Source of the DNA: Morchella semilibera | Taxonomy: Eukaryota > Ascomycota > Pezizomycetes > Pezizales > Morchellaceae | Assembly: GCA_009192285.1 (NCBI GenBank) | Contig: WBVU01000003.1 | Location: forward strand, 434,001-498,000 | Length of the DNA: 64,000 nucleotides | Reading direction: 5' to 3' | In this document: positions 2,497-58,341 of the stretch, in pieces | Layout: every line of letters begins with the position of its first letter | Numbering within the stretch: the stretch's first letter is position 1 | Program-made: the position numbers and the translations under genes | The notes under the pieces: generated by a model | The model's input: the letters and a program-made list of their open reading frames with translations, nothing else | Told to the model about the DNA's origin: nothing | Databases searched by the model: none

Positions 2497-4450
2497 TTAG
2501 TAAGTTGTAGGAGATGAATGTTAGCAGGTAGTGTGGTAGAAATCGGAGCTCTGTGTGTGTGTGTAAGTGTGTGTGTGTGGGTGAGTGGGTGGATGGGTGA
2601 GTGTGGATGTAGTGGTGAGGTGGTGGTGAGGTGGTGAGGTGGTGAGGTGGTGGTGGTGGTGAGTAAGAATTGTAGATGTACGGATCGCGAATTCGTGGAT
2701 GAAACTACTTAGCCGGGGACACTGGGGGTAGGTTTCTCGATTGAAACTGTAATATACATAATCAGTACTCGTCGCGCGCAATAAAGCCATTAGTTGGAAC
2801 AAGGGCGGGCGAGGGGACAAACAATTGCGGTGTTTCTTTGACCTTGACAGGTCTATTGTTTTTACCACCGCGACCTCCCCTTGTTCCCCGCACCCCCCAG
2901 GAACAGCTTCAGTCCAGGTATTTGTTGCTGCTTCTGCTGCTGCTGCTTTTTCTTCCTGATCCAGTTACTATCCCCTTCCAGCGGACTCGGTCTCTCACAC
3001 ATCGTCGTCGGGGTGGGTAGATAGGTGGTTACGGGATTCGTGGAGGAGAGGATCCAATAAATTAATTCGGGACGACGTGTTTGCGCGAGGGTGTATGTTG
3101 GGGCTCTGCGGTGGCATAACCCTGGCCCTTGACTTAATCCTTGGCTGCTCTTATCTTACTAGGATCAATATGCTGTCTCGGTTGGCTGATTGGAAATGAG
3201 GGGGAGGGAGATCTCGGGTATCATGATGGATCTCGGCTACCTAGCCATTCGCTGAAAAAATCAAGGGGGGAAATCTGGGGACAGATCTAGAACTAGAAGA
3301 TTGGATAGAAAGACACAACTTGAAGACAGCGGATTGAAAGCCATGCTCTGAGACCTGGAAATGTGGGGATTGAGTATCGAGACTGGTAATATGAGGGCTG
3401 CGTAAGCTTGATCACTTTATAATTTATTCCTTTTATTTGTGAGATGAGGACCGTGAGATTTCCCCTAGGTACATGTACTTACATGTTGTAGGTACTTGGG
3501 CACATTACATGTAACATACATGTATGTACGTGTATGTACCATACATGTTACTTAGAACCTCACGTGCGTAGGCCACCCGAGGTGAGATCTGATATCACCA
3601 GAATAAAGTTCATCTGTGGTGGTTGTTTTATTTCAGACTGCTGCGCAAAATTTAAAAACAAACATACACAATTAAAAAGCACCTACGTCCAGCATGATAG
3701 GGCCTTCCTCGGCCCCGGTAAGGAACTCTGTGCATGTAGGACGTACCTACATGTACCTAGCCATCCGTGTCCGTGCCTATTTCATTCCCGTGCCGCTTCC
3801 AGAAGAGATATTCTTAGTGACGGTAATGACGGATGCAGTCAAGTTAGCCAGCCAGTAACATACACACACAGCAGTAACCACTATCCCTGCCAACCGTTAC
3901 TAAGCGATGAGTTGAATTGAGTTCAGCTCTCTCTTCTGCTCCCGGAACTAGTTATATCATACCTACACGCACCACAGCAAGACATCCCACGATAGCTAGA
4001 CGAAACGAAACTTGGAATATTGATTATATCCTTCCGATTGCTGCTGCATAGGTCAGCGGTGTATGTGTGTCTGCTCATTCGTTCGATATACTTGCAGAGG
4101 GGCAACTTAACCTTTTATCTCGGTCTTTCGGTCTAGGTGCTAAAGAGGTCCTGTGTATCTCCCGAATCGAGCTTGGGATACTATCTATACATTATATATA
4201 CCGGAATATCTCTAATCGAACCTCGAGGTGCTCTCTTGTTTCAAAGGATCTAGGTGCTTGGGGCTCCTCGCAGAGGTATCCTACTCTTCAATCACACTAC
4301 GGCACTTTGACTAGACAGAGGATTTCACTCTTCATATAACCTCATACAAAAGAACATCTACCACCTTTACTTTAACCTCAAACTCCAGTCTACTGCTATC
4401 CCAAGACCCAAGGCCTACGCTGTGGCCCCAGCTTTCCGGTAAACCCCACA
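2497..4450. other. Divergent intergenic region between the EF-hand gene and the TBC gene
   Basis: The genes on either side are transcribed away from each other, so both promoters must lie here. The part nearest the EF-hand gene carries GT-rich simple repeats, and 2880-2960 has a CTG/CTT-rich stretch. Several TACATGTA palindromes occur at about 3470-3760, outside any coding sequence. Short open frames are present, but none has codon texture or motifs that would support a gene. Confidence 0.6.
2545..2665. repeat. GT-rich and GGTGGT simple repeat
   Basis: An interrupted run of GTGT, GGGT and GGTGGT units lies just upstream of the EF-hand gene start, about 50 to 170 nt from its ATG, so it probably falls in that gene's promoter or leader. 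Confidence 0.8.
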
Positions 4451-7400: not shown

Positions 7401-7839
7401 GCCCTCCTCTCTAGGCGGGCGCATGCCCTCCCTCCCCTCCCTCCCCTCCTCGCCTGCAATCGTTGCAGGTACAACAAAAAGCCTCCGCGGCGTCCTCGAT
7501 GGCATGGTCGACGAGGGTATGCGTGTCGCCGCCGAGTTCCGGAAACGGGTGGAAGAGATGGAAGAGAAAGCGGTCGACCACTCCAGAGAGGATGAGGATG
7601 ACGACGCCGGCAGAGAGACCGACAGCAAGAGTATCATGGAGACGGACCGCGACCTCCTCAAGGGGGCTGAAGCGGAGACGATCCTGGAGCGAACCCCAGA
7701 AACGACTCAAGAGGAGTTCAAAGAGGAGCGACTTGTGGTGGGGAAGCGGGGGGGGCTGGGGGGGCTGGGGCTACCGGCGCCGCCCGAGGGCGGGAGAAGA
7801 AGTGTCAGTGAGGGACGGACGGTGGAGTTTGAGAGTTAG
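4451..7839 (+). CDS. GRAM-TBC-EF-hand Rab GTPase-activating protein (Mdr1/Gyp2 type)
   Basis: Four exons (4451-5150, 5212-5282, 5335-5615, 5673-7839) are joined by introns of 61, 52 and 57 nt and encode 1072 residues. The start ATG is followed by a GRAM-like domain (about 28-150, containing [12 protein letters not shown]). A TBC domain follows (about 240-450) with both catalytic fingers intact: IEKDLNR (IxxDxxR, Arg305) and YCQ (Gln340). A calcium-binding loop, [12 protein letters not shown], lies at about 740-751, with Gly instead of the usual acidic residue at loop position 12. The tail is acidic and low in complexity. This order matches yeast Mdr1/Gyp2 and animal TBC1D8/9 proteins, which speed GTP hydrolysis on Ypt/Rab GTPases in vesicle traffic. 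The size is close to the roughly 950 residues of the yeast protein. The Rab substrate cannot be told from sequence. Confidence 0.95.
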
Positions 7840-8629: not shown

Positions 8630-8671
8630 GGGGTGGAAGGGTGGAAGGGTGGAAGGGTGGAAGGGTGGAAG
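8630..8671. repeat. 8-bp minisatellite, unit GGGTGGAA, about five copies
   Basis: Direct reading shows about five perfect head-to-tail copies of GGGTGGAA between the TBC gene and the Gcr1_C gene. Confidence 0.92.
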
Positions 8672-9412: not shown

Positions 9413-9436
9413 GTCGAGTCAGTCAGTCAGTCAGTT
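9413..9436. repeat. AGTC microsatellite
   Basis: Consecutive AGTC tetramers, about five in a row, in non-coding sequence. Confidence 0.85.
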
Positions 9437-15500: not shown

Positions 15501-18500
15501 CTTGATGTCTGTCTCCTGGAAGCCGGTGCATCACCAGCCCAACATTACGATAACCAATCGCAACGCTGAATATGAGCAGAGTGTATTGGTTGTTTCTCTC
15601 CGCCTGTGTTAAAGCCATGATTGCAGCTAAACATTTCGTTCTCAGGGTCCAAACCGCGCTTTTTTGTTGAGTTCACGCACATGTGCGGAATATGTTATGC
15701 AGATACATGTGCATGTTGTGGGCCGTAGCTACATGCACATAATGCACCCGGTACATACATATGTAGCCTCAACGCCATCGAATGATATGTACTATATATA
15801 CACAGTGTTTATTGATGATTAACATTGGGGGGATGGGGCCGGTAAAACAATCACTTACTGAACAAATATGAGTTGTCAGCGACTGAACGCCCGCTTATTT
15901 CTATGTGTATCTTTGTATTTGTATTTATGGAATCTATATTGTTACCAATCCCGACATCTTTTGTTTATTGGTTTCCTTCTTCCTTTCTCAACTTCTATGG
16001 CCGGAAACCACCAATCCATCGGCCCCTGCGCACAAGACCCGCTCATGGGGACGCGATGAAGATGAAGGTGAAGATAATGAAAAAAGAACATGATGTTGAT
16101 GTTGTTGGTGACGATGATGACGATGATGACGATGATGACGATGATGACGATGGTGATGATGGTTGGTGTTGGTGGTGGTGGTGGTGGTGGTGGCAGTTGA
16201 TACGACACGATAGACTTCAATACATGCCAGGAAATATTCGCACAATACATGTATTTTTGCCATACACCTGGTCAGGTCTTTTTATAAAGTTCGTAGACGA
16301 CCAGTGCACGTGATGTGCGCACGCGCAGATGTAGTTGTAGTAATTCACGGTCTGTAATAGTAACCTCTATCCAGGTTCCCCTCTTGTGTATCGAGCTCTC
16401 GGTAGCTATAGCTCGGCCCCGCAAAACTCTAGATACTTATATGTTGCCTAAAATGGAATCACCGGCTACCGTTTGTATGAAAAACATGTATTGCACGTAC
16501 ATAGTATATATCTGTGTGGTACCACACTCATTCACACAGCCTCCATTTCCGAAAAAAAACCTCCATCTAGACTTTTCTTCTTCTCCCAAGGTTGCGTAGC
16601 TATAGGTAGAGCTTTATCTTTCCGTAGACGGATACCCTGTCGATCAGGATACATCACTTCGGCTGGGGGCGGAGTGTAGTGGACGCACAAACAATAAGCT
16701 ACGACTAGTGGAAGTGGATATTTGAACTGTCTAAAATGCCAACGGGGCTGGAGGAAATTCATTTTCCCTATCAGATTAGCACAGATGCTACTTTCACACT
16801 CATACTTCCCACGACAGACAATAAAGATGCATTAATACCGTATATATACCTCCGTCGATAGCCCCTAAACCCCGCTAAACGAGTCTAGAAGCAGTAACCG
16901 TATGACCTGATATGATCTTAGTAAAGACTTCTGTGGTTACCTCCTTACAGAATCGGTAGAATTTATGCAGCCAGATCGCTTCTGCGCTATAGCCTGGCAT
17001 GACGATCGAGGGTTCCTGATCCTACAGCTGTAAGGCTTGCTGGTAGATTTCCCTCCCGATTATGGCTACAGGATCCGGAGCTGGCAGGTGTAGTCTTGAC
17101 ATCTAAAAGTGGAAATCCATGCAACAGTTGTCACTGTGGCACTGGTGATACCAGTACGTATCTGTGTAGTGATAATCGATATACAGCGCGTTAGTTTTTT
17201 TTTTTTTTTTTGCGAGATATCTCATGTGATCATAAGACTAGTTGATGAGGGCCATATCCCTAAAACCCCCTAAGTTACATGTAGTTACATGCCTTAATTT
17301 AGAAATATCAGTGTGGTTTTCGCTGGGGTCGGTACAAAAGTAGGAGTGGATTATAACTGTATTGTATTACACATATATGGCGTGGTTTAATTCATAAAAA
17401 CGACTGTAGATTAATTAAAGTTAAGAAATGAGATAATCTACGTATCTGGTATAAAAGGTGTGCCATGTAGGTGGCAATATCTCCGGATAGAAAAACTTAG
17501 GTGACTTAGGTGATAGAGAGACTTAGGTATTAAGGGCTTTAAATTTGATGTCGACAGGATTAACAGTCATACATGTAGTCGTGATAGAAATGAAGGTTGG
17601 GTATTGATGACGTTGCGCAAGTTGCTCCCCCATATCATGAGGTAGATTGAGGAGGCCACGTGCACAAACTTTCCTGACCAAAGTGGTCGACACTGCACAC
17701 AACAAACTACATGTACTTAAATACATGCATTTACACCTATATCTATCTACAGTCGCAGTTATAGATTTTGTTGCCACCAGCAACTCTTTTGTTAGACTCC
17801 CTTTTCCACTAATTCATGACCACGCGACCAATTCATAGGCCATGAGCTTGAGTGTCCGCGTGTAGTAGAATGTCCCACAGTAATCCGGAGGGCCTTATAA
17901 TTTCATCATCCTTAACTCACATTGCTAAGACAATAAAACAAGCCTGTTACGAGCTGGATGCGTGTATGAAGTGAGCAAAAAAAAAAAAAAAAAAGCCCCG
18001 TTACGAGCTAGATATCCGAGTGATAAATTGTGATTCAACTTCCCTACCCCGGTAGTTTGGAGCTTTGAGATATCTCGCCTTCTTAAGGAATATAGTTGTA
18101 ACCTAGCTAATCACCTAAGTATATTATGTAGAACCTTGTGAGGTGCTTTAGGTATCTACTCTTTCCGCTTTCCTACTCTACATGTAAGTACGATAATACG
18201 TGTTCGAATTGCAGTAATCAGCTTCGTGGCTGACTGAGCTCTATAATGTGCAATATATATATATATGTTATAAGTACGTACATGTCTACCACACTTTGAA
18301 ATTGGATTTATAAATTAAGCCCATTCACAAGATAGGATCGAGTGACAATCCATGATGCGCCACGATATACCGAATTTGATGTTGGTGTGGTGTGAGGGTT
18401 ATGTCACATGATCTTAAACCTTGGTATCGCTTGCAGGGTAGCGAATAAGGCTGATCCACCACTCTGCGGGCCATGAGGCTCATAGAAAGCTTGGCATTGG

Positions 18501-20324
18501 CATTAGGCAACCATGGACCAGGACCAGAACCAGGTCAGCTCAGGTTGCAGGCACTTTGATCAGGGTCCTTAGTGGTATATTTGTCTTGTATTACGTTACA
18601 TCAACCCTGCAGACCTTTGAGGTATGTTGAGTACCTGATGTGGAGAAGAAAAACCCAGACGACTGAGTTATGGATAGGAGTCGCTTGAAGTCATACATTG
18701 AAACTGCCCTGGGGTGCACAATACACAAAAAAAGCCTACAGTTCACTGGTTTTAAACCCGCAAGCCTTACAGTGGGATTGACATTACAGGAGCTGAATAG
18801 GATATACAGGGGGAAATGCGTTAAAGGAAGGCTTCTCGAAATTTCCGAGCATGGCCGGCGGTACCATGGTGCTGAGGGAAAATAAGATAACCTTATTGTG
18901 GGGGATCTGGTTGGGTTTGCTTGGAGCTGTTAACGGTTGATGCACCTAGTGACAGAAATCCTCCGGTATAGTTTCACTGGTACAGAGACCCTATGGCCCA
19001 CAGTTTGATAATATCTGATGAGGAAATGAAGTAGAATGTAGTATAAACCAATGCTGACGTTCCTGCGCCGCTCTCTACGATTGGCCTACGACAGATATCG
19101 TAGCACGCAGGATATCAGGAAGACACATCTCCGGAGTACCCGGAGTGCATTTGTTTGACACCCAAAACTGACATGTACTTGGTGGGTATTCGGAACCCTT
19201 GGAATGACAGATATCGCTTAATTATGTATGTACATGTGCGCAGCGATATATACCACACGTGCTAGAACGATCACAATTTAATCTCTACACCCACGAGCAC
19301 ATTTACCGGGGAAGCTACATAAAGAGGCTTGCATCGAGTGGTTATTGGCGTTTTCAAATTCTAGGACATTCTGACGATTGTCAGACCCTTAACTGAAAGT
19401 ATGTTATGACGCTGGGCGGATAGGGGCAAGAAAAACCATTCGCCCTTACCTTAATTTTTCCCGTGTAGTCATTTCCGGACCACTCAGTTCATCTGCATCC
19501 TTACGCCGTTGACGCCGAGCCTCGGTAAAATACATACAAGCCCCTGCTGTACGGGGTACGCAAGTGTCAAAGTTTCTATTATTACTAATTCGTAGCGTGC
19601 ATGTAGGTACTCATACGCGCTCGAATTCTGGGTGATAACTACATGTAATTTTGACTTTCACTCAGTCAGTCAATATGCAATTCTCTGCTCTGTGGAAATT
19701 AAAAGGTACTAACATCAGCTATATGTAGGTACGTGCTTGACTTATGAAAAATGCCTTGTGTACCAGTCAGTAGTAGGCCTGGTATTTCAGCTACTGCTCA
19801 ATTATGTGGGGTGAGGGTTTTTGTTCTGCCTGCCTGCCTGCAGCTGCTGTATTTGGCAAAAAACAGCACGCGTAGTACTACTACATGTAAATCTACATGT
19901 AGGCAACAGCACAAGCCCCATTGCCCATCCATCCCTGAAAAGAACGAAAGGGACTATAGAAACATATTTTCTCTTGACAAAAAATTTCTGATGAAGATAT
20001 GCAAGTAATAGGATGTTTTTATGTAATTTTCATAAAGGTGAAACATTCTCGCTTGGATACACTTTGATTAAAGTTGATCTGCCAACGTCCCAAGCAATTC
20101 CTTCCCGCCACAACAACCAACCTCACGACTGACAGAATTGATCCATTCTCTATTATTATTATTTATTAAGCCGCACAAACAGTCGAACAAAAAAAAATAA
20201 TAATAAGAAAAAGTACGATTCTTCCTTTTGGCCGCCCAAAAAAATATTAGCGGCATAAGTAAATTTTTTGTCTCTAACATTTTTTCAACGTAGAAACCAT
20301 AGACATCGACATTTAGAGTCAGCG
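12550..20324. other. Upstream region of the Gcr1_C gene and start of the gene-poor tract
   Basis: From 12550 to about 14500 the sequence is purine-rich on the plus strand, with long G, A and GT homopolymers (for example 12821-12840, 12890-12904 and a 21-nt A run near 13133). This is consistent with a long promoter or leader for the minus-strand regulator. From about 14.9 kb the base composition becomes AT-rich. A GAT/GAC and GGT microsatellite lies near 16.1 kb, an 18-nt T run near 17.19 kb, and TACATGTA palindromes recur from 17.28 kb on. I see no supported gene. A 71-codon ATG frame at 18670-18885 has no recognisable motif. Confidence 0.55.
16107..16194. repeat. GATGATGAC 9-mer repeat followed by GGT repeat
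   Basis: About five to six 9-bp GATGATGAC units (16107-16155) are followed by a GGT trinucleotide run (about 16165-16193). No gene can be assigned to it. Confidence 0.9.
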
Positions 20325-21570: not shown

Positions 21571-24097
21571 ACTAGAGGTCCGGGGCGGTGATGGAGATTA
21601 GTGTGTAGTGCGCTAAACGACGGACTAGGGATTAGCTAAGGTTTAGAGTTTATTATAATTGATTATTTTAAATTTCGCTCGTGGATATAGGCCCCTGGTT
21701 TTGCTATCATACATGTAGTATTCTACTCGTACTCATCTCCCCTCTAGTCGCATAAGATATACATGTATGCAATGATCGAAGCTAGATAAGCGGGGGAGAT
21801 GAAATTATATTTGGCAATACGTATGTAAAAACCTACACATTCCAGGGTACTGTTTTGCCATCATATGCAGATGTAGGAAACGCACAAAGCCGATGGACAG
21901 ATGCACATTGCACAATATCATGGCAACTTTTATTAAGGAAACGCAGTGATACGTGCCGCGCCGCTGGGGACTTTTCCCAGGCGCTGGAAATAGAGTGTTT
22001 TGGTTTTGACAATTGACTGTACCTGTACATGTATGTTACAGTGGTATAATTTGCCAACAGTACAACCCCGGCCGTTGAGGCCCAGGGCTGAAAGGAGCGA
22101 GGCCTTTAGCTAAGCCTTGCGTAATCGCTATGTAGTACTAGTTAGGTAACGCTGTGATATTGGAAATGTTCAGAGGAACTTTGAGTCCCAATCGCAATTG
22201 AAGGAAGATATCCCTAGTTGGGTTCTCGTGATCTCTGGGATAGATCTAGTATTGAGTCAACGTTAGTTAAACCTTTGTTAGATCTCAAAAAGGGGGGGGG
22301 GAGGGGGTTTCTCTGCCCCGCAAAGTATCATTCGGTATTAATATAATTCCCTTTGGGCGAATAACTACATTGTCATACGCCCCAATATTGATATCGCCAT
22401 GATTTACTGGATAAGTGATAAAGGAACGAATTGCGAACGCACCTCAGTAGAGAAATTCATTACTGTTCACCACCGTACACAGAAATGATAGAGTTAAATA
22501 TCACCTTTATAATTTTGTGTTCTATATATTGATCACGTCCCTTAGCTGAGAAATGCCTTATACTAGCGCTAACATATATATAGCCCTCATCCTTAGCCGT
22601 ACTACAGGCAGGTTGATCTTTTCGAGAATGTTTCCGCACAGCCATTTGCTTTCCTCAGTGGACTACCCCACAATGAAGCATAATCTCTTTTCGGGTCCAT
22701 AGGAGAAATAAGTTCGATTCTACATGTATGTTACACAGAGAGTGTGTACCTACTGTATGCAGAAGCGCGGTTAATTAATAAAACCATAGAGAAGAGATAT
22801 ATTGCGCGTATAGCTAAAGGATGCGGGGTCTATTGCGAGGCAAGGGCACGTGCAAGGGGAACATGATAATGAGTACATGTATACATAATACTTGATTGGG
22901 AACTGCGAGGGCCGAGATAAAATCGCTTTTTAGCGCTCAGTGCCTGGCGCGGTTCCTACTCCTTATAGATACATGTGTCGAGAGTCCTTTAAGCCACAAT
23001 AGTATGTACCGTTTTTAAATTTCCTGAGTAGAATTACATGTACTTACATGGCTGAACTTAGGTACATGTATTTTAGCTGAAGTTATGTACTTGCCTCGAG
23101 AATAAGTTTCTGCCACCACTGTCTTGCAACAGCGTTTTCTCACACAAACTTGGCGGAAACATTCTCGCCGCAAGTAGGTCTGCCTAGCCTTCTTCTGATT
23201 GGTCGTTGGAAAATCATGCGCAGCTTAAATGTAAGTGCGCAATAAACCCGGGCTATCATTTATGCCTAAGCTACATGTAGTCAACCTCATCTCTCGAGCT
23301 TACATCGTTTGTTCCTCAAGTCGGCTGTTCTTAATGACTTTTCAAGGAAAAAAGGAGAGGAAAAAAAAAGATTCGGCCCGCTTCTCCCTGCCATTTTACC
23401 TCTTTTAACTAGCTTGGGGTTCAGAGTAGGAACAAGGAAGCTAACCTGTCATCTATCCATCTTATCCTTCTATAGCTATCTATCATTCGAGCCCTCAATT
23501 GCTAGCGGGGATCGATAATTCCTTCAGCGAATAACATGAGTGCGAAGATTAAGCCCTAGGGCCTGACGAAAAGTCATAGAGTACTCGAGCTCCATCAACT
23601 CGGATCAAACCTCACTTCTAGTACGTTTATTTAATACAACTGTGCGCCGCTGGGCCCTGAGTTGTTTGTTAGGCCTTGCGCTAACTCTTGTGCGATCTGC
23701 TAGGCAATCAATTTCACGATTTGCGAGCAGGTTTATAGGATTTCAAGAACTACCTACGTTCAAAATGGTTTAAGATACTGTTTTCGTAATTAAAGTCCTG
23801 GACCAACACCAATATCGAGCAGGCAAATCCTTCAGGAGCATTACCCCATGAGTGTCGACTAAAGCGCTACTAAGTCGTAACCAATTAATCCTTTAGCCTT
23901 TCTATGAATCACAGTCTCGAAGCTAGTTTAAACAATGTCCAATGAGGCTTTCAATCCAAATAGATATATAGCGAGATGAAAATCTCCATATTCGAGCGTC
24001 CAGAGAGCTACAAGTCTATTCTATATATCCCAGCGTCCATAGATAGCTATAACACTCTACCTCCTACAACCTGACTTCAAAAACACCTCCCATCACA
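21571..24097. other. Gene-poor AT-rich stretch
   Basis: No supported gene is visible. TACATGTA occurs about nine times (for example near 21.71, 21.76, 22.03, 22.72, 22.87, 23.04, 23.06 and 23.27 kb). The last 80 nt before 24098 hold a CTATATATCC TATA-like box and a clean translation-start context that appear to serve the next small gene. Confidence 0.55.
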
Positions 24098-24558: not shown

Positions 24559-25539
24559 TTACTGGGCTGTTCGGGCCGACTGCGATATGGTAGCACTTTT
24601 TTTTTTTAGGGAGGATGCACGCATATATACGAGACGTGGAGTATATCGTTTACTTTAGCCCTTAGCTAGGTTATTGAATACACTGATAATAAGAATGCTA
24701 TATGGGGGTTGGGTGTTTGGGTAGAGCTAACTGCAGCGCTTTGTATTGTTATTTCCTTTCTTTTACGATAGATACATGTGGTTTTTCTTCTTTATTTTGG
24801 TTATAGGGATCGGGGAGTGGATTGGTTTATATGGGCCCCTTGTTTTTTTTATCAAGCAATTTGACACGGATTAGGGTATATGGATTCATGTTTCAAACAT
24901 TTGCAATATATTATCAGTTTTGGCAAGATGAACTGATATCTCAATGATGTGCATAAACTAGAGTTGCTTTAAGTAATTTGGTTGTTTTAATGATTGAAAC
25001 TGGCGCTGTACTAAACTCAAATAACAAAAGCATTTACTTAGTAAGTCTTGATCTCCAAAACTATAGCTATGATAAAGTCGGGTTGAGGCACATGTGATCA
25101 ATTGTATATAACGGAGGACCAGGCATTCATACATGTAGTAATTATATAAGTAAGCCTACATGTAGATGCTGTTCAACTGCATACGTATATACAGTACCAA
25201 AAAGGTCGTGGATTCGCTACGGTGTTCTCATAAATACGCTAGCTAGCTATATACGCGGTAAGAATTAGATATTGATACAGTATTATTCCTATAACGCCGG
25301 TTTAATCCTGTATTTGTCACTAAGTTCCGTAGGTTTTTTCATACTGTATATATGATCGATCTACTGTTTAAAGGCTGTCGGATATTCACTCTATAATACA
25401 GTTATTGGTGCTATGTCTGACGGAAAGTCTTGACAGCATTCAATAGCTAGCCAGACAGCTTTAGAATCCGGCCGAATCAACGAGGGCACAATACTCCATC
25501 ACCCACGCTAATTGTGAGGTAGAGGCTCTTTTCTAGCCA

Positions 25540-26545: not shown

Positions 26546-26574
26546 ACATGTCCTCACCTGTTATCATTCTTCTA

Positions 26575-32366: not shown

Positions 32367-32429
32367 CTACGGGTGTAGGGGTAAGTCTGTAGATCTAGAC
32401 TGTCTACAGACTTACCCCTATACCCGTAG
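32367..32429. mobile_element. 63-bp hairpin MITE, TA-flanked
   Basis: Two 27-bp arms starting CTACGGGT and ending ACCCGTAG match with one mismatch around a 9-nt loop (TCTAGACTG). TA lies directly outside both ends. Near-perfect arms imply a young insertion. The next element begins within 6 bp of its right end. Confidence 0.8.
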
Positions 32430-32434
32430 TACTA

Positions 32435-32568
32435 CTACATGTAATTTCATGACGTTTCCGAACACGACTGCTATGCATACATGTAGAGTACACACAAAAA
32501 ATTGCCAAGCGCCCCCTTTGTATAGTATGCAATATTAGTTGTGTTCCGAAACATCATGGCGGGGCGAG
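32435..32568. mobile_element. MITE family C, copy 2
   Basis: The left arm holds TTTCATGACGTTTCCGAACA and the right arm the inverted form of CCATGATGTTTCGGAACACA. The right end is CGAG followed by TA, while the left end CTACATG has drifted. It is 134 bp and non-coding. Confidence 0.72.
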
Positions 32569-33921
32569 TACCGACCTAGGCTAGGTAAGAGACTAGAGTA
32601 GTACCGAACGGGCTAGACTTTAAACACCAGAATATGCTTGTCCTATTCGAAACCTCTACATATGTAGCTCTCCTGCACCACTTCCTAATATAATCTATAC
32701 ATCAGCTGAAGTTAGATGTCGTGATGACATGGCAGCAAGAATTTTAAATTTCCGATGTAGAGTAGGTACCTTGGTATCGGTACATAAGGTCCTGCAATGC
32801 GATGTACTGTGACATCACGATCGTCGGCATTAAGATATCGGATTTTCAATACTAGGTCGCAGGTATAACATACTGGTTCGTATACATGCAGGTACGTATT
32901 AGTCCCAGCTCTTAGGCTTGAAGGTTGGAATGCCCGAAATCGAACAATATTGGAATGTCTCCGAAGCTGTTATAACTTGAGATGTAGGGTATGGGCCCAA
33001 GGCGTTTATAGTTATTATATCAACAAGTTAACCTATAGAAGAATAGATTTAGACTAGATATGTAGTTGCACAACAGAGGATATAGTAAATGCGCTGCATA
33101 AACGAGGACATAGTAAATATACCGCATAAACATCTTCCATATGAATTCATAAACAGGAACATGTGCTTGGCATCACTAACGTCCATATAGACATGCAAAC
33201 GGCAAATCTTAAGGGTTGGTGATAGAGTCGACTTCGATAGTACACTTTCTAGATCCTATAAGTCCCTGGGTGTATTAGTGGTCATATATATAAGTAAGTC
33301 TGGTGTGGACCTGTTGCAATAAGAGTGCATGTAAGATGTACCCCGGGGGTCCTCAAAGTGATGCAACGGCGACAGAAACCACTAATTTCGCAGCTACTGG
33401 CCACCATGCCCAAAAGTTGGGAAGTAATTTATATATGTTGGCATTAGGTGGAGCTATATAATAATAGTAAATGGAAATACTAATGGAAAAAATTGACTGA
33501 GCCTAGCTTTGATAGTGATCGCGACACCAGAATATTGAGCTCGTTGCATCACTTTAAGGGCCCCCGGGGTACATGTATACATATAGGTTATATTGAGAGA
33601 TGTGTGCAAGTATACATTAGTATTTATACATGTATTAATTATAGACTTATAGCACTTGCTCGTGTAAGTGTACATGTACGTACTTACGTGGCTACATAAA
33701 AAATCAATGTTACGTGCAATTCGAGATCTTTTGTATACGTAGTACAGATCCTCATCGGTGATATATAGCGTAGAAGTATATACGTATATATGGGTATGAC
33801 CATATATGTGTACATACATGTAATGCATGATGTGTTTACGCATCAATACTTGTGTATTACAAGATCTTAAGATGTATTCATTCTAGAACCCAGATAACTA
33901 CATGCACATACATGTAGTTTA

Positions 33922-34055
33922 CTCGGGGCAGGTAAAAAGTACCGGACAATAGAGGTTTTTGGTTCACCAATGGGTGCGCGTACTAGGCGAGAACTACTGC
34001 AAAAAAAGCCCAGAGACAAAACTTGCATTGTCCGGTACTATTTACCTGCCCCGAG
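33922..34055 (+). mobile_element. MITE family A, copy 1 (identical to the copy at 42539-42672)
   Basis: It is 134 bp, with terminal inverted repeats CTCGGGGCAGGTAAA and an inner AGTACCGGACAAT that extend to about 29 bp with one mismatch. TA borders each end. It has no open frame of use. Compared base by base with the reverse complement of 42539-42672, I find no difference. The structure points to a non-autonomous Tc1/mariner-like element, since TA targets are that superfamily's hallmark. Confidence 0.9.
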
Positions 34056-34970
34056 TATACATGATATATTATGCGTGAATTCTGGTGGGGAAGACCCAAA
34101 GAGTGATTGGCAAGCACTTTGGTCATTGAGGACCTACATGTAGTAGAAGGAGGGATTTTTCGTAATCGTACTGTTTTAAACTACATGTACGTACATGTAC
34201 ATGATACCAAGCGAGAACGTTGGCTATACATGTAGCTATGGAACTTTAGCCGAGTGAGAGTTAATTAAATAAAATGCCAATGATATTAGAGAACTATGGC
34301 GGGGATAGCTGGGCCGCGCATAGTACTCGTAAATGCGATTATAGGAAACCTCAGTTATATATACATGTATATATATGTGTGTGTGTGAAACACCACTTTA
34401 CCGGCCACCGACTTATAGCTTAAGAGTAACTGCACTCCTGTAGTTATCAAACTGCATGCCTAGGTCGGCGCCTTAAAGTAAATTTTCCAGCACCAAATCA
34501 GCACTCCAATGTTTACAAAAGGTAAAACCGGTGATTACTTTTGCCATTTCTGAGTAGTACTGGGTTTAGTCTCAAGACTACTATGTAATTAAACGCTGAT
34601 ATCTAAATATTATCATCTATCAACCTTGTTAATACGCATTACATATTTTATAGCCCGGATGAGAATACTAACGCTCTCACAGAAGAGTCCTATTATTTCG
34701 AGACGTATAATTATATGTATTTACAGTCTCAATTACATGTACTACATGTAGTAATTACTGATCCCTATTATACCGCTCACATGAAACACCATCTAAATAT
34801 GCAGCCTCGCATCTGACAATATGCGCGAGGTGTCCCGGCACCATTGGCTGTTGTAATCAGGCTGCAGCCTCGCACATAACACAACATATCTCTTCTTCAC
34901 CTTGAATCAAGCCTGTAACTCCTCCTGAGTGGTTTGATCATTTTCTAGAATACTTTACATTTTGGCTGCG

Positions 34971-35002: not shown

Positions 35003-38000
35003 AGAGACCGAAGAACAGTAGTACATCGGCGAGTATTTGTTAACTATCCCTTAGTCTGTCAATGCTGACCGCCCTATAATAGAGGAATTGAATTTGTATG
35101 GAAGATCGCTATTATTTGATAAGGGAGTTAACAGGATCTGTTGGGAAAGCCACACAAAATTTGCTTCCTCTAGGGGGGGGACTAAGGGATACCACTATAA
35201 TTTGCATTTGAGGTTTTGTACATAGTTTATCTTAATCCCTACTTACTGGATCAAACGCATCTCAGTTGGTGTGTGTGTGACGGTATGCCATATGAAAGCC
35301 TTGCGGAACTCCGCCGCACGGGGAAATTAGACTGCATTGAGGAGAGACGAACGGTATAGGAGTATGGCGCTTTGCGCGGGGCCTGCTCCGTTGTATCTTT
35401 GTGCCTTTAACGCATACGTATATAACTCGTAGCAAAATCTCGTAACTGCTTATAATTGTGCCTGTACAATCCAAGGTGGTTAGATTGATACTAATTTTCG
35501 CTACAAAATGTCCCTTTAGATTGAAACCACATTAACGTACCTAGGCCTCTACTTAGCTATTTTATCGGAGGCCAAGCGTCTATCTCTTCAGTGCATGTGA
35601 GTTGGTATTCGAACCCTGATCTGAGTAGGTAGCTTCTGTAAACGGACCGGAACCCAATCACGGGGTAGAAGTGGCATGACGGCGATACCTCAAAAGTCTG
35701 GTATGACTTCTCCTAAGCGCACTTTAGCTATAGGCATGTATTAGCGTTAAACGCATACGAGTACATGTAGGCATTAGGAGCTGGGATGACAGGTTTAATT
35801 GATATAAGAGGAGACGCTCACAGATAGGTTTTTTCCCCACATATCCTAGCGTTGACAGGGAAAATCATATGTTTCATCAAGCAAGGTACTTGATCACGTC
35901 AGTATTATAGTACCGCAAAGCCTCGAAAAAATTGGCTACCCCCGGCTAGGGATAATTTGCTTAACGATTGGTTGAACGGTGTAGATTATGTCTGCTAATT
36001 GGAATTTTAATCTCATATGTGCAGCTGATTTTTTGAGTTGCGGCGGTAGTATATTTGTTCATTCATCATTGAGGAGCTGTCAGTTACTCTCACACATCAT
36101 GTTAGCATAACAGCGCTTGGCCGCATCCTCTTTGAAGTAGATAAAATACCTAGTCCGCCCCCCCCCCAAAAAAAAAAAAATCACTCGGAAGACCCAGCGG
36201 CCATATTGAATAGTATGAATACGGTTGCACCCTGTCCCAGAAAACCACTTATTCATGAGCCAGGACATCCGTGGTTAAAGCCCTAGTAAAGCCCATCCTG
36301 TAGTATATGAGAACATTGTTGATATTTCTCAAGGCTCCTGTACTAACGATGAAGGTTTGATCAAGCTTGTCCTGATCAACACCAGCTTGCGGTGGTCTCC
36401 GATTCTCACCCTGAAGCCTGTGGGCACAATTGCTAAAACATTATCATGAGGCGTTTCATGGCTGTCGATATATGGTTGGCATCCGGAGTCGTTCACCTAT
36501 AAAGCCAGACCTCGGCCCTTTTATTGCCGGTATGCCGATGCTGTGCCGCTGTTATTACTGCTGCTGCCGTTCCCGCTGGTTGTTGATGATTGCAGTTGTA
36601 CCATATTCGTGATAGACTTCCCCGGGCCCCAGATAAATGCGTGCTCAAGATCCATGTTTCCTAATTGCGACAAGCAATACAGCAGCCACCAGCTCTAAGT
36701 CGAAAACCGATGAAATCACCCTCACACCTAATCCAAAGCCTCACAGCACCGATGACTCTTATCATTCAATGTCTCACGTTTTTCCAGAATCAAAAATTTA
36801 TCGCGGTGATCGGTATGTCCATAACCCCATATGCAGTCTTCTTTATCTCGTGTCACATTTGACATTCCATCATGCGTATGTGCCGTACTCAAAAGGAAAA
36901 AACTCAAGAGGGGTAACCGAGTGAAGGCAGAGCTGTGCCGTTTTAAAGTAGTGTAGAGAGATATAGTGGTAGAATAAATCAGTAGAACAAAGAAGAGAAA
37001 ACAGAGTTTGTGTATCTCATCTGCATTGTACCCACTCGAATCTCACCCGAGAGAGCGCACCCAGCCGAAAATTCAGAAAAAAAGTCAACCAAAAGTGATT
37101 CTCACGGCGCTCATCACACTAAAGTATCCCTCATCCTCGCCAATATAGGAGGTACCCCTCCATAATCAAGTGGAAACTGGTTTTCGCTGGTATGACGTAT
37201 ATCCACATATCAGATTCATTGTTGGAGGCCTTTCTTCCTAAACCGGTTCTACAGTAAGATCCCACGAGCTCGATTGAATCGGTGGATGTGTAAATGTCCA
37301 TCTGCCGCAGAGATCTACAGGTTAGGCCGTCGTGTGTTGTTCTGTTTCTAACTTCTTTGCTTGTGGTAAGAGAGCAGGAAGGGTAAAGACGCTCAGGCAC
37401 GGACTAGAAGAATGAACTGAAGGATCCTGGACTGTCGGTCATGGGTTTCTAGTAACTCGGGATTTTCTTGACTCAGATAAACAGATCCCGTGGTCCATTA
37501 CTCAAGCGATTTTAATTCCGTTGTTTTAGAAACTTCGTGATGGTTCTTCTACTACAGGTTAGAATAATAGACACCATTACAATACATCATAGGAGACTAT
37601 AATTATGAGAAGGTTAATGACTCGTCTGCTAGCTTTGGAGTTAATTTTTGAGAGTAAGGATACCAAGATCTACCGATAAACATCATATCATTGTCACTGT
37701 CAAACGGATCCGAGAGTTCAAACAAGGCTGGCTACCCGAGGGCAAGAACGTCAGCAAACGTCTGCTACGTGTCAAAAAGTGATAATAAGCTTTTAGTAGA
37801 GATGTTGCTTGTACGGCTTGTGAATTTGCAGGGGTGCGTGGGAGCGGTATTTCGTCACAGTGAAATTCTTGGTAGGAAGACCGACTGTGAAAACAACTGA
37901 ATCTGAATCATAGCGGGCAGGTACTGCGACTTGAATACTAGTGGAAACACTATCTACATTACTTGGAGTGCCATACCAACACATCTCTAGCTACTACTCG

Positions 38001-42188: not shown

Positions 42189-42538
42189 TTAGTAATCTAT
42201 GTACTCTAGATATTATACCGTCTTCCTAATCAATATTAAATACTCTGGCTGAGCCCATACTCACGTATCGCAGCAATACAAGTGATAGAGTGCGTATGAG
42301 CTATATCTGCAGATCATTTCTCAACGGTCAAGACATCAAGCCATTCAATTAGAGACGGTCAATGGTTTCTACTATATATTCGCTTTGGGGAAACAGCGTG
42401 AAATCATTAATAAGATGCGGGTTGGTTGAGTGTATTTAATTAGCCACCTACTCCAAATATATAGAAACATTACCTGTAACGTTTTCCAATCAGTTAGATA
42501 TAGCATGCAAGTACCTGCATACTTACATACTACATGTA

Positions 42539-42672
42539 CTCGGGGCAGGTAAATAGTACCGGACAATGCAAGTTTTGTCTCTGGGCTTTTTTTGCAGTAG
42601 TTCTCGCCTAGTACGCGCACCCATTGGTGAACCAAAAACCTCTATTGTCCGGTACTTTTTACCTGCCCCGAG
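42539..42672 (-). mobile_element. MITE family A, copy 2 (inverted, identical to 33922-34055)
   Basis: Same 134-bp length, same CTCGGGGCAGGTAAA termini and TA at both flanks, in the opposite orientation. The identity of the two copies, in sequence with no coding constraint, means very recent mobility or gene conversion. It lies about 350 bp downstream of the phosphatase gene. Confidence 0.9.
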
Positions 42673-43315
42673 TAATTAAAAGTACATGACGTCTCTCAGG
42701 AAATTTTATCAAGCACGATTTCAACTAGGCCACTCCTTTGACTTAGGCTTTTCTATGTCTCGCTTTATATACATGTCCCCCAAGGTTAAAGGGACCCACG
42801 AGCAGGCTCCTGTCTTGACTGAATATGTATTTGCTTTCAACCCAAGCCTAGGTAATTGATCTGAATACAGCGAAATACATGTAGTGAACAATCATTGGCT
42901 GCCACATCACCCGCCATAGCTCTTTGGGCGGCCGGGAGTATTTGAGAATATGAAACTGCCGTTGCCATGACAATAGCGTGTTAAATCGACAAGTTGCAAA
43001 TCCGTCTATGCGTGTGGGTGAGTAAAGCCTCAACCTCACCACCTCTTGCAACCATTAGGCCCAATTGAAATCAGGACAAAATCACCTAGCACAGTTAACC
43101 CGCCCCGAAGTACATGTAGGGCTAGGGTTTGTTGCGAATTTTTTAGATATATTCCCATAGTGAAACGATGGCTACCTTGATGCATATGTATTCTCGATTT
43201 CCTTAATCCCTCCACTGGCATCACTTCTTTCTGCTGACGAATTAGATCGATCCCTCAGGATTGGGGGTTATGAAAATTATGATATGGTGGATGCCGCCTA
43301 GAATGAATACTAGTA

Positions 43316-44502: not shown

Positions 44503-47500
44503 TATATTGACCATCTAAAATTATCGGCGATTGTCTATTTTGAGGAGAATTCTAGAACTAATTGTCAAGGATATAAGCATAAACCTTAAATTAATATACT
44601 TTGTCCCAAATCAAAATATGGCATGCATGTGCACTGGAGGTTCGGCTTTCTGAATATTCCTATCCTATTTGTCAAGCCTATTAATTCCTCCAGTATAAAT
44701 CATTCTACCAATGGCCCTCTGTCAATAGCTTAAAGTATCTATGGTAATACAAACCTTGAAGCAATAGGCAGTGTTTTGCTATCAGAGAACTTTCCATCTA
44801 CCCGCGAGATAGCTCTGATACATCTCTACCTAGTCATTTTACACGACAAACGCTAGTAACGTTTTAGACCGGGTACCGTGTCGGACCTAGAAGAGTGTCA
44901 ACCCCACACAAATTTGTATGGAGATTTCTGTTACCAAAGCTATCTCCACCACCTCTTAAGATGTTAATTACCAGATTTTTAGTAAATGAATTCCACTTCA
45001 AAACACAAGCATTTAATTAGTTTTCAGATTGATTATCCTCTATTATGGTGATTATGGGGTCTTCGTTTTTCGAAGGCTTTATGTCTGCTTTGGTGCCGTT
45101 GCCATACGACACACTTCTAGGTCTGACAGTACTGGGTCGAAGACGTTATAGGGTATTCGAGTTCCACCAGGATGTACCGACTAGGACACTTGCTCATTAA
45201 TTAATAAGGCTCTCCGAGGCTCACTCTTCCTTCCCCCGCTTCCACCTTTTCTCTCCCGGAATCTGGGCATATATATGTCCTGCTTGACTTTGTATCCTGG
45301 AGAGCCCCCACCCCAGAACTTATTCTGTGCCCCCATAACGGACTTCTGCTAGAGAAATTAACATAGAGCTTATTTATAAACAACTTAGTACGTCCTACTA
45401 TTAAACTTTTGAATACCTAGTGGAGCTTTTCAAGTGGCAACGTACGCATTTTTCTTTAGTTATTGTGATATAGTAGTATTGCGGGTGATTTGTTCATTAA
45501 TTTCCAGCTATCACAGGACTATCTTCCCTATATCACTTTCATCATTAATTATATACACGGCCAGTTCTAGTGCCTAAGTATCTGCCGATCGATTTAGCCA
45601 TGGCCGGCCCAAGGGAAAACTATCATATATACAAGGTACCCGTCTAGTTTCCTAGACTAGGAGTCACCCATACTAGAGACAAAGCACGTCTATGATCCTA
45701 GTTTGGCAATCGTAGATATCTCACTACTCACGATCTAACTACTCACGGAGTGGCTCCCGGCATGCATGCAAACCTACAACCACGGACACGATTATTACAG
45801 TGAACCCCTACGTCTCAGGCTTGTAGTCTCTGCATCGATCATAAATATTTTCCCCCTTGATATTATACGGTGGTTAGTACGTACATGTAAATACCTAAGC
45901 GTTGGAAACCAGAAACAGGAGGTCCGCAGTCAAAATTGAAAGATTTCGAAAGTGTGTCACACCCAACGTCTTACTGCGTTATATCTACCACTGGTAAAGT
46001 CTATGGTTCATGATCATTTAGAACTGTTGCCAGTTGCGGCACCCTCATTTTCGATACATAATTAGCACTCAGTTGGGTATCAAATCTACATGTAGCTGCA
46101 GTCATTCTCGACGAATACATGGCATGACATCACTGAGCATGCATATGTATAACCCCAGCGTGCCCACTACACGTGGAAATCGGAAATTTTTGATGGCATG
46201 TGCCTTGAGGTAGTGCACTTTGTGGTACCCAATGACAATGATAAAAACATTGCTTGTAATTGGTCAGCTCCTGATCTACCTCCCTGGGTTTGGAGAAAGA
46301 GATAAAAGTGACTAATAGTTTCGTTATGGATATATTTCGTTCGTCTGGCTGGGAGGCTCTGCCAATGAATGACATCAGTACTGGTTAGGAACCGGGTTTA
46401 ATTGCATATAGGTATATATATGTCCTAATTAATGGTGTGCCTGTAATTAAATATGCTCGATCAACAGCGATCTGACCGGACGCCCGCTCTAGTGCATCTA
46501 AGTAGAACTCTAAAGCAGAATACCTATTTTATAACTGTAGTTAAGATTTTGTGGGTAGACGCTCAATTTCAACCAGCTAAACTCATAGTACCCATTATTA
46601 TCATACAAACTCATAGTTATCTAGTGCTATAATAGAATATTGTAAAAGGTTATAGCCTTAATTGAGGGCTAAGATTTGATCTTTATTTTTCGGCTTCCAA
46701 GGGGAATCCCAAAGGGTATACAATTAATGAATTAAACAAAAGGGTTCGAGTAACGAGTGATATTTCATGATTTCATTTGGTGCTTTTTTTTATTTAATTC
46801 ATTAGCTTATTTGGTTGAGCTACTTGCTAAGTAGGAATAAAATTGTCTTGAGTAAATTGCCAGCATTGAAAGGCCGCAACACCCGCCAGACCAAACAAGC
46901 TAGTGAGCTGATATATATATCCGTTGTATATATGGCTAGTATGTATCGCCCACGACTAAAGGTTTCTAAGCCAAAAACGGACACGAAGCCGTAGCATTCT
47001 GTGGTAGATGTAGTAAATCTAGGCATTATAGTAGGCAATATGTCTTAAAATCAATCAAAATCCCAAACCACAATCATATATTCTCACTCGTAGCCAATTT
47101 TCAAATATATATAATTACATAGATCTAGACTCAACACTGAGAGTTAAGCGCATTGCGTCCTAGTGATGGGCTCTGTAATTTATGCTAGAATAGATCTAGG
47201 CACAGATATGTCGGTTCTGTGCTCTCTTGCGTCATGAAACATTAATCGGGTTCATTTCTAGGTCGCAAAGGTTCCCGATAATCATCATGTCTTCTCCTTC
47301 TCTCATAGGGACTTTCCTACTGCCTAGGAGGAGCTATATCCAGTCTTCTGCCGGCGCCTCACGTAATATGGAGAGATATTCCCGGCCCCGGGTATGAACC
47401 ATAATGACCCAACCAACCCTCCCAGGAATATAAGCTTAACGCACAGAGCCAACTTATTATGGCCCGTTTTCGATAGCTAGAGAACTATGTGCGGCCGTAC

Positions 47501-51512: not shown

Positions 51513-52297
51513 CCTCACGGCGGTTAACTGTATGTATGTATGTACTTTGTAGTTAATATACACGGGAGACGTAAGCCCGCACGGAGACAGTAAACACAGA
51601 ATTTACCCCAGGCTACCACCACCACCACTACCGCGGTAGCTAGCTAAGTATGTAGCCAGGTAGCTTTCTACCGGGTGCCCCAGGGGCGGATGGAGCGAGC
51701 AAGCAAGTGGGTGGTGGGTGGTACTGCCGGCCGCGCATCCGCGTGCGCCGGCCGGAACATTGTTTATATTACTATTGCGGGGCCCCGGGCTCAGTTGTTT
51801 ATATTGAGGCCGCACACGCAGCTGTCAAACTTGTTTTGTTTATAGTGCAGCCGACGTTGTGTATTGCGGGTTTGTATAGTATGGGGTGCGGTGAGCGTGT
51901 AGATCTGGGTAGATCTGTGTAATCTAATCTATATGTACCCAAAGTGAGGAAAATACTTTGATCTGCGTGCGTAGGATGTAGTACTGCCTGCGTGCGTGTG
52001 GATAGTACCCTACAGGCTATGTATATGTAGATACCTCTAGAGTAAGTACTTTGCAGCGGCGGCAGACTGGAAATGATTGTCGTGGGGAGCGCTATGTGCG
52101 GATGGGAGAGGCATGTATGCATGTATGCATGCATGTAGGTATGTAGGTAGATACATGTATGTACATGTATTCACCCACCGCGCAGGTAGCGCAGATGGTT
52201 TCTCAAGTCAGAAGTAGAGATACGGGAAAACATTGGAATGTTTCCTTAATTCTCCACGCCGAGTAAACGGATGGGGCACCCCGCGCACACGTTCGAC

Positions 52298-52514
52298 AAC
52301 CACTTTAACGCCCGATCGGATATTCCTATGGGCCTGAGTTCAGCTTTAGCGAGGGCTTAGTCAAAAGTTAGTCTAATGAAGACCTTATAGATTTTTTTCA
52401 AGCCTTTTTATGATTTAAGGAACATATAAGGTTCAAAAAAAATCTATAAGGTCTTTATTAGACTAACTTTTGACTAAGGCTGATAGGAATATCCGATCTG
52501 GCGTTAAAGTAGTT
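52298..52514. mobile_element. Nested-arm foldback element (217 bp)
   Basis: The outer arms share ACTTTAACGCC and GATCGGATATTCCTAT in inverted form. The inner arms (52356-52398 and 52435-52478) carry CTTAGTCAAAAGTTAGTCTA and AAGACCTTATAGATTTTTTT in inverted form with one mismatch. The whole can fold into one long hairpin interrupted by an asymmetric bulge (52337-52355). Non-coding. A TA target duplication is not clear, so the superfamily is open. Confidence 0.82.
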
Positions 52515-54126: not shown

Positions 54127-54140
54127 TAGGGTTAGGGTTA
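54127..54140. repeat. Short interstitial telomere-like TTAGGG run
   Basis: TAGGGTTAGGGTTA reads as two consecutive TTAGGG-type units. It is too short to be evidence of a former chromosome end and could be a Tbf1/telobox-type factor site or chance. Confidence 0.45.
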
Positions 54141-55968: not shown

Positions 55969-58341
55969 TAGTGCTCTAGAACCCAATTCAGTAAGAAGTG
56001 ATACACAAGCAGAGGCTACATTTGTAGAGAGCTTACCCCGGATTAAAGTCGTCCCTTCGGCTGTCATTTTGCACTGTGTGGTTACACCTCCACCGGGCTC
56101 CGGCCTTTTCTAGGACGAATGTAATTTCATGCGCCGGGATCTGTAGGTTCTATGTATGCACATATCAGAAAAGCTGCTCTCTTCGAGATGCCTTGTTGAG
56201 ATGAAACAAATGGTAGATACAAAGCTATCTGACTGAGTGCCCCACAACCTCGGGGGATACGTGTTCGGTGGAAATATTACCCCACATCAATTATCGTACC
56301 ATGTACCTTGAGATGGAAGGGTGAGTGAACTTTCTGCCTTGGGACGGAGTGATTCGCCCCAGTGATCGATTTAAACTAAAAATGGAAGAAAAGGAAAGGG
56401 AAAAAAAAAGAAAGGAGAAAAGGAGGGCCGTGGATGGGTTTCTCTTAAGAAATGCAATGTCCTTTCTTATAATAGTACTAATCTTGATAATAGGCCCTGG
56501 GATCGAGAGAATGTATGAGGCACTCATGTGTTAGAGGCTGTACTTGATTGCCATTTGGCGGTAATTAACGTCGTCATCATCATTTTGAACGGTTTGGTCT
56601 TTTTGATGTTGTCAGTGTTCTGGATCTTTAATGAGAGTATGTAACACGTCTGCAATGAGATCTCGAAGTCTTGGTCCCCAAGTGGACACAGCACTTAATC
56701 CCGGTAATCTGGTCCTATAGTACCGACAGGGGGGGGGGAGTACTATACAATAAATAGGTAATGTTGCACACACACTATCCATGCCCCTCTATTCGGTACC
56801 GATATCCATCCTGCTTGCTCAGAGCACAGGTTCGTAGGTATTCTGCAGTGCCGAAAACCTAACTCCCGTGGCCCCGGGAACACGGCCAATAACATGTTCA
56901 TATCAGAAGTTCAACTCGGATCTAGATTTTGCATACTTGAAACTGTCGTCGTCGACACATCCCTATGAATTAGGGAGGACGTCTAATTGGTGGCTAACGA
57001 CTCTTTCCTAGAACTGAGCGCGCACAATCCCATCTCAAGAAAGTGATGATCAGACGCAAACAAATATGAAGATTTTTAGGTAGCCGGTTTTGTTCACAAT
57101 TGAACCACCGGCATGTAAGGTGCTACAAGACTTCTAACTTCCACTTTCAGCATCAAGTTTTTCGTTAACCTTTATGGCAAAACCCGAGACGAGATAGAAA
57201 AAAGGAAGAAGAGGGGCTATCTGGCTCAAAATTAAGCATGTAAAGCATGCTCCCATAGCCTTCCACATTCTGTTGAGCCAGGTAGGCTGAAAAAGTAAGT
57301 TTTTTGAAATTTAGTTATCTTTATCATAAAAATAGAAGGGCCTGGGACACTGATAATGCAAATGCAGCCTCATGCTATCACAAGTCTAGACATGTGGGTT
57401 TTAGAGTCGGTATTGTGAGCTGCGCTGTATTAAAGGTATTCTCTACGCGGTTTACATGATCAGTATACAGTATTACAGTAAAGCCAAAAGATCTATTATG
57501 ATGTTTGTACATACATGTATGTCGTGCTGCTAAGAAGCTTTGCTGGCTTCGTTTACCCATAAGCGGTTGTGCCACAGGTGCATGGCAAGAGGTGAGCTCC
57601 AAACATGTGCCTCAATCCCGATTCGATTCTGCAAGACCGCAGGCATCTTGCTTTGTATCTCCGCGAGTCTAGTAAGAGTACCTAGGTACATTCATGTATA
57701 GTGTCCTCTGCCTAGAGTAGGACAAATGGCTACATGTAAGTATGTACTCTACAGACAAATTCTGACCCGAGACCGTGGAGCTGTCGTCGACCAGGTTTCT
57801 ACCCCACGCCCGTTCATTCCCCCTAAAACTAAAACATCCACGGCTGCATCTATCTGGTCTCCCGCCATGGCGCAGTGATCTGTCTACCAGTAAAAATGGC
57901 CGAAGCCACGGACGAGGCGTTTTTAAAGATTGAAATGAGTTAGGAGTCAGAGAAAGTGACTGTGAACGGACGTGGCAGATACATGAATCGAACAGGTCTG
58001 TTCGCTTAGCATCTCAACCACACATGGAATTAGATTTTAATGTTCATGATTGATCCCGCAGCAGAGCAGCAGCCGTTATGATGGATGGGTGAATATACGG
58101 ATGATATGATGCTGATGGAAAGTTGCATGATGACTGGATTGTTATGAAAAGAAGCTGCCACCCTATTCCCGTACTCCCCGGCCCCCGAGAAAAAAGGATA
58201 TTCCGCTGAAAGCCCTTCCTGCTACTCTGGTAACCTCGCCATCAATTGCTGCGACTTGATCTGATCGATCCAGCCCTACAGCCTGGACTGTAACCCTGCC
58301 GTCTCAAGCTTGATCTATCTTCATATCTACCCTTCTGGCTC

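Follow-up and report, generated by a model that had tools for sequence, protein, structure and literature searches.

A 64,000-nucleotide stretch of the Morchella semilibera genome (assembly GCA_009192285.1, contig WBVU01000003.1, positions 434,001 to 498,000 of the forward strand; hereafter the window) raises the question of why a single palindromic octamer, TACATGTA, recurs there far above chance and outside coding DNA. An earlier reading of the letters (the sequence-only reading) offered three answers: the binding site of an abundant factor, a target for repeat growth, or the signature of a mutational process in AT-rich DNA. The last of these was found to be the best supported and can be specified as insertion at TA of the cut-and-paste type. 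Most copies are probably excision scars of a Tc1/mariner-type transposon, with the structure TA-CATG-TA. The mechanism of such a scar is of a known kind; its scale here and the missing agent are the new parts.

According to this explanation, a cut-and-paste element of the Tc1/mariner type would insert at a TA, which would thereby be doubled. At excision, the transposase would cut two bases inside each 5' end, so that the flanks would retain CA and TG, and end joining would then produce TA-CA-TG-TA, a net gain of CATGTA at the original TA. The element would favour a TA within (T)ANN-TA-NNT(A); existing scars would supply further good TAs, so that scars would cluster and nest. Insertions into genes would be selected out, leaving scars limited to non-coding DNA, where they would decay neutrally.

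Abundance of the octamer

The window contains 48 exact copies, the first at 3470 and the last at 57731-57738, where about fifty had been counted by eye. Markov models of order 0, 1, 2, and 3 predicted 1.3, 1.1, 1.7, and 2.9 copies (about one had been assumed earlier), and the Poisson tail for 48 copies against 2.9 is ~1e-40. Orders 4-6 predicted 8.7, 28, and 40.5 copies, an unfair background because these models were trained on the octamer's own 5- to 7-mers in the same 64 kb.

The enrichment is genome-wide and not local to the window. The whole assembly (56.8 Mb) holds 22,206 copies compared to 3,723 of the reversed word, a density of ~390 per Mb, and the window lies at ~1.9 times the genome mean. 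Some sequence contributes twice to the 56.8 Mb, whether as haplotypes or through duplication in the assembly: the contig pairs C9/C10, C12/C13, and C21/C22 share near-identical stretches with shifting offsets between common elements, and two samples of ~9.95 kb, one each from C9/C10 and C12/C13, were 100% identical.

Word statistics were determined in a 244-kb sample, composed of the window and 18 of 20 sampled loci (two were dropped as 100% identical to others), to which the following counts refer unless the genome or the window is named. With 126 copies against 5.3 expected (order 2), TACATGTA had the highest z-score of all octamers counted 15 times or more. Its one-mismatch words, at 6 to 42 each with reverse complements merged, were far scarcer, and the octamer is therefore sharply bounded. 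Among words of the form TA-NNNN-TA, the runner-up was TATATATA (71 vs 10.8 expected); TACATACA and TGTATGTA were likewise enriched, and TANNTA words overall showed some enrichment in the sampled DNA.

The exact matches in the window are located as follows.

3470..3477: copy 1
3506..3513: copy 2
3517..3524: copy 3, at a spacing of 11 from copy 2
3748..3755: copy 4
16246..16253: copy 5, outside coding-like segments, the sole copy within a gap described earlier
17276..17283: copy 6; copies 7-9 start at 17570, 17708, and 18179
19640..19647: copy 10; copies 11-12 start at 19882 and 19894 (spacing 12)
21710..21717: copy 13; copies 14-20 start at 21760, 22026, 22721, 22874, 23035, 23063, and 23272
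25130..25137: copy 21; copies 22-23 start at 25157 and 27313
32436..32443: copy 24, a CATGTA gain at a TA close to the end of one MITE1 element (see below)
32478..32485: copy 25, within an insertion of 11 bases, CATGTAGAGTA, at an internal TA of the MITE1 element that also holds copy 24
33570..33577: first of copies 26-37, a cluster of twelve starting at 33570, 33627, 33671, 33815, 33909, 34135, 34182, 34192, 34227, 34362, 34734, and 34743
35762..35769: copy 38
42531..42538: copy 39, its second TA being a MITE2 insertion site; copies 40-41 start at 42876 and 43111
45882..45889: copy 42; copy 43 starts at 46087
52152..52159: copy 44; copy 45 starts at 52162 (spacing 10, TACATGTANNTACATGTA) and copy 46 lies at 52666
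57512..57519: copy 47; copy 48 lies at 57731-57738

The twelve copies reported between 33.5 and 34.8 kb were recovered. The stretch said to be free of copies, from about 3.8 to 17.2 kb, is interrupted at 16246, and the true long gap spans 3,756-16,245. Overlapping or paired copies had also been described; overlap does not occur in the window, where the closest spacing is 9 (34734/34743), but overlapping copies exist elsewhere in the genome. As had been stated, the octamer is not a tandem repeat: it was the unit in none of the 26 tandem-repeat (TRF) rows of the window. The AT-rich setting proved only partly apt, since the 1-kb bins holding copies have 38-49% G+C.

Gains of the octamer at TA in repeat copies

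The genome is rich in short TA-flanked inverted-repeat elements (miniature inverted-repeat transposable elements, MITEs). Genome searches returned 36 matches for MITE1, 112 for MITE2 (both arms counted), 43 for MITE3, and 109 for MITE4 (arms counted), as well as 84 and 85 end-sequence matches on the two strands for a set of CAG-ended elements. These counts are lower bounds, as the similarity search scores best candidates only, and some are doubled by duplicate contigs. The window itself carries the following MITE copies, among others.

32425..32530 (+): MITE1 copy, TA-flanked, beginning CTACTAATTCCATGACGTTTCCGAACACGAC..., which holds octamer copies 24 and 25
33919..34057 (-): MITE2 copy, TA-flanked, with ends CTCGGGGC...GCCCCGAG, identical to 42537-42675
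42537..42675 (+): MITE2 copy, inverted relative to the copy at 33919-34057
52298..52514: MITE4 copy with inverted arms, whose relatives end TA-CTTTAACGCC...; a comparison family, with no octamer inside

Alignment of 34 MITE1 copies (two from the window and 32 fetched from the 34 matches elsewhere in the genome) revealed that the window copy at 32425-32530 has gained 11 bases, CATGTAGAGTA, at an internal TA (32478). This insertion was present in 0 of the 33 other aligned copies, one of which (L062) has lost the matching segment. At 32436, the window copy and L062 read TACTACTA-CATGTA-(A/G)TT, while most intact-ended sister copies read TACTACTAATT; because of a TAC repeat, a 3-base gain is equally possible at this position. 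In MITE3, represented by 38 distinct copies (L007 and 37 fetched; rows L019a and L019b duplicate L117 and L104), the copies L096 and L101 carry a second octamer, which amounts to six gained bases with one A lost next to them (GTAAACTAATCC to GTAACTACATGTAATCC). L101 has one CATGTA more than L096, within the ancestral MITE3 octamer, and thus a nested doubling.

These gains, few as they are, lie at TA and leave a TA on both sides, as a Tc1/mariner footprint does. No clear case of gain by substitution was seen in the aligned MITE copies (L046, with a replaced end, is ambiguous). Other gains of the form TA-X-TA were GAG at 32478 and CTC in L105, which fit the MITE2 ends CTC...GAG, and CAG in L079, which fits the CAG-ended elements. 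Short tandem duplications of four bases also occurred in MITE copies (CATA in L043, GTAC in L098). A transposon origin of the TA-X-TA gains seems likelier than slippage alone.

Slippage or short tandem duplication, acting in non-coding DNA that is TANN-periodic and rich in TACA/TGTA, could instead produce both the octamer and its doubles, but this appears quite unlikely to us. The four-base duplications, the enrichment of TACATACA and TGTATGTA, and the doubling in L101, which is a tandem hexamer, agree with it; however, sister copies contain no template hexamer beside the gains at 32478 or in L096/L101, and slippage does not predict the excess of TACATGTA over other TA-NNNN-TA words.

Still another source would be inheritance of the octamer as part of amplified repeats such as MITE3, the count then reflecting copy number. 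MITE3 does carry it in 33 of 38 distinct copies, and the Tc1-like copies L033 and L034 share one inside. Within the 313 kb examined, however, repeated surroundings (E up to 1e-4) were found only for MITE1-3, L033/L034, a hairpin in L024, and overlapping loci, and each family seen numbers tens of copies rather than the 22,206 to be explained. Amplification explains few copies in these 313 kb and was rejected as the main source there; we regard it as highly improbable.

Coding avoidance and decay

Coding-like DNA was delimited by a hexamer score trained on 31 long open reading frames (ORFs), which gave 148 segments covering 56,577 of 244,000 bases. None of the 126 sample copies fell within these segments, where 20.5 were expected from TA density, in support of the earlier statement that the octamer is confined to non-coding DNA. 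Outside coding-like DNA, it occupies 0.9% of TAs (126/13,728). Words with one mismatch sum to 181 where 104 were expected; of the 77 in excess, ~59 are transitions, mostly at the CA/TG step. This transition-rich excess fits what neutral decay of old copies would give.

Target context and clustering

For the context test, CATGTA was removed from each octamer, and the resulting site was compared with all other TAs in the sample. The flanks then read (T)ANN-TA-NNT(A), like MITE4 insertion sites. TAs with A at -3 and T at +3 (ANNTANNT) carried the putative scar in 46 of 1,567 cases (2.94%), those with one of the two in 56 of 6,510 (0.86%), and those with neither in 23 of 7,748 (0.30%); where TA stood at both -4/-3 and +3/+4, the proportion was 19/281 (6.76%). 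The test is not free of background because TANNTA words in general are somewhat enriched. In MITE4 flanks (n=36), the frequencies of A at -3 and T at -4 were 0.75 and 0.44, compared to 0.59 and 0.47 in the scars. MITE2 flanks were weaker (A at -3 0.44, n=16), and MITE1, MITE2, and MITE4 pooled gave 0.58 (65 flanks). The profile expected of a TA-inserting transposase was thus found, like that of MITE4 and unlike that of MITE1 or the CAG-ended family. The scar context also resembles the preferred target of Sleeping Beauty, ANNTANNT.

Pairs of octamers with a gap of 0-30 numbered 2,666 in the genome, against 129 for the reversed control and 269 expected at random. The first 100 pairs listed all lie within roughly the initial 2.4 Mb of contig C1; among them, the commonest spacing was 10 (TACATGTANNTACATGTA, 19 pairs), and spacings 11-38 averaged 2.7 per base. 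Helical phasing of neighbouring sites was considered and rejected, as no peak appeared at 20-22 (6/100) or 30-32 (5/100); the pair spacing fits a TANNTA target better. The doubled form TACATGTACATGTA occurs 501 times in the genome (reversed control 90), which corresponds to 1.1% per TA of the scar, a rate similar to that of TAs outside coding-like DNA (0.9%). With two good TAs per octamer, 501 doubled forms, and 8 of 36 CAG-ended elements sitting in its TA, the octamer is a target for repeat growth, as once proposed, in a secondary sense only.

A binding site of an abundant homodimeric protein, selected in promoters or other regulatory DNA and with the spacing-10 pairs as dimers on one helix face, would account for a perfect palindrome with a sharp edge, for its non-coding location, for the commonest spacing of 10, and for its good preservation in MITE3 (33/38 distinct copies). 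Additionally, the same octamer is abundant upstream of Phytophthora genes and correlates there with infection induction, according to the excerpted text of PMC3520976. Nevertheless, the gains in MITE copies are insertions at TA, peaks near 20-22 or 30-32 and hence any sign of helical phasing are lacking, and the neighbouring words decay in an apparently neutral manner. A search for a matching TALE homeodomain protein, in which other homeodomains were not searched, returned one KN homeobox match in the genome (E <=0.001); its recognition helix reads NWFINARRR, unlike the Iroquois form. Iroquois proteins carry the alanine form of this helix. The suggestion of an abundant binding factor thus received no direct support, and we consider it unlikely.

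Search for a possible source transposon

Tc1-type transposases are present in the genome (69 DDE_3 matches), and the loci L033, L034, and L037 contain open frames together with TA-flanked CAG...CTG ends. The commonest CAG-ended family found (TACAGCGRYRGGTAA...) comprises 36 elements, namely 32 MITEs and four longer copies (L153 and L170 have identical flanks), and showed G-TA-C at 97% of 72 flanks. The strict G-TA-C target, with the consensus ATG-TA-CAT, is seen in the CAG-ended elements and MITEs of 103-117 bases (L151-L182, L033, L034, L037, L038). Other CAG-ended elements in the sample included single examples at 6611-6793 of L027 and at 4220-4366 of L028.

A site with the element in one allele and the scar in another was looked for at a single place, which did not yield an informative pair: no homologous flank was present on C21 where the counterpart of the element at C22:1585513 should lie, and the same-flank place on C1 (L153) is also filled.

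Of the three-base TA-X-TA words, which were weakly enriched, TAAAGTA, TACTCTA, and TACAGTA ranked high (z 2.8, 2.0, and 2.0); they match the ends of MITE4, MITE2, and the CAG-ended elements, respectively. Half scars (TACATA/TATGTA) were enriched, at 293 against 172, and their flanks bore a mild resemblance to those of the full octamer (A at -3 0.43 against 0.31). These are not claimed, as TAAGTA is higher (0.47).

Several results weigh against an origin of most copies by excision. First, the agent is missing; no resident element was matched to the scar. The CAG-ended (CAGCG-ended) Tc1-like family was rejected as a source, since its GTAC target mismatches the scar flanks; its scars would read GTACATGTAC, which was found at only 6 of 126 copies, about the expectation from flank frequencies and without excess. 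As the main CAG-ended family does not fit, the explanation requires some other CA...TG element, whether still present or since lost. Furthermore, the scar is unusually uniform, the three-base TACAGTA being barely enriched (43 vs 31.6), and MITE1 flanks show no preference for A at -3 (0.31, 13 flanks).

Second, only four or five gains were seen, all of them at TA, and these few would have to stand for 22,206 copies. The MITE1 and MITE3 queries were picked because they held the octamer, which is ancestral in MITE3 and intact in 33 of its 38 distinct copies, and the doubling in L101 could be slippage. From the context rates, 1.7 octamers are predicted for MITE1 and 3.9 for MITE3. None was found inside MITE4 (33 stretches, 718 TAs; 4.5 predicted) or inside MITE2 (10 copies, eight of them chosen for odd length, 106 TAs; 0.8 predicted), an absence that a younger age of these families may explain. 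Finally, six other palindromic octamers are scarce in coding-like DNA too (6/72 copies). Part of the coding avoidance is therefore general, which slightly weakens the confinement to non-coding DNA as an argument.

Other features of the window and of the repeat families

The two MITE2 copies of the window are identical and inverted, and many listed genome copies are 97-100% identical; this near-identity of sequence suggests recent movement. In MITE3, sister copies have a plain TA at a position where L097, L102, L103, L107, and L110 all read TAGCTGTA and L099 reads TAGCTATA, a further gain of the TA-X-TA form. The MITE4 copy L145 (C2:2396740-2397085) is split by a stretch with the ends GAGCGTGTTGG.../...CCAATACGCCCT next to TA, a nested insertion of another family. 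ORFs of the window match GRAM, RabGAP-TBC, GCR1_C, and Exo_endo_phos2; the GCR1_C domain lies in the ORF at 10804-11796 (-), with E 4.6e-27. Rfam and tRNA scans of the window found nothing.

Meaning of a possible excision origin

If most copies are excision scars, a word that ranks among the strongest oligonucleotide signals in a eukaryotic genome has no regulatory or structural role, and caution is advisable in taking such words for binding motifs. A single octamer would then count past transposition, at ~390 per Mb or ~0.9% of the non-coding-like TAs in the sample, and the uniform four-base scar would indicate that joining in this fungus fills and keeps both overhangs. A further-reaching proposal is that the genome is a fossil record of more than 10,000 excisions by a nearly or wholly vanished transposon family, and that the Phytophthora 'promoter motif' of the same eight letters is at least partly the same kind of scar. 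We put this forward tentatively and regard it as doubtful; if true, counts of TA-X-TA words would be a general readout of past cut-and-paste activity and joining chemistry in any genome.

Comparison with known systems

Among the titles and abstract openings listed in literature searches, no earlier description of a genome-wide or dominant-word scar in fungi was found. A palindromic motif associated with MoIsw2 of Magnaporthe (PMC11481914) was not usable for comparison: the portion of the text searched contains no TACATG, and binding is linked there to transposon DNA.

The Tc1 element of C. elegans has CA...TG ends. Its footprint consists of the same eight letters as TACATGTA, and the net gain of CATG and a TA at the TA follows from a cut two bases inside such ends. 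In the relevant excerpt, PMC3520976 describes the octamer both as a rare footprint of Tc1 in C. elegans and as the site that Iroquois homeodomains prefer. In M. semilibera, by contrast, it tops the octamers of the sample, and the source element lacks a match. For Tc1/mariner elements in general, the cuts fall two to three bases in from the 5' ends (excerpt of PMC2170065), and footprints are described in general terms in parts of PMC7827188 and PMC2874221. The Sleeping Beauty scar likewise consists of the overhangs between two TAs, as the same part of PMC7827188 describes, and the gains TACAGTA, TACTCTA, and TAGAGTA observed here (L079, L105, and 32478) are of this form. It has three bases and not four, however, and such words are not strongly enriched in the sample.

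A parallel in abundance is found in Phytophthora, where the same octamer is very frequent in upstream non-coding DNA, as motif-1 upstream of 12,070 genes (excerpt of PMC3520976) and as M93 in promoters (excerpt of PMC3597505). In the excerpted text of PMC3520976, its authors decide against a footprint and in favour of a homodimer binding site for motif-1. Whereas the transposon interpretation was set aside there, gains of the octamer at TA are visible here in individual repeat copies.

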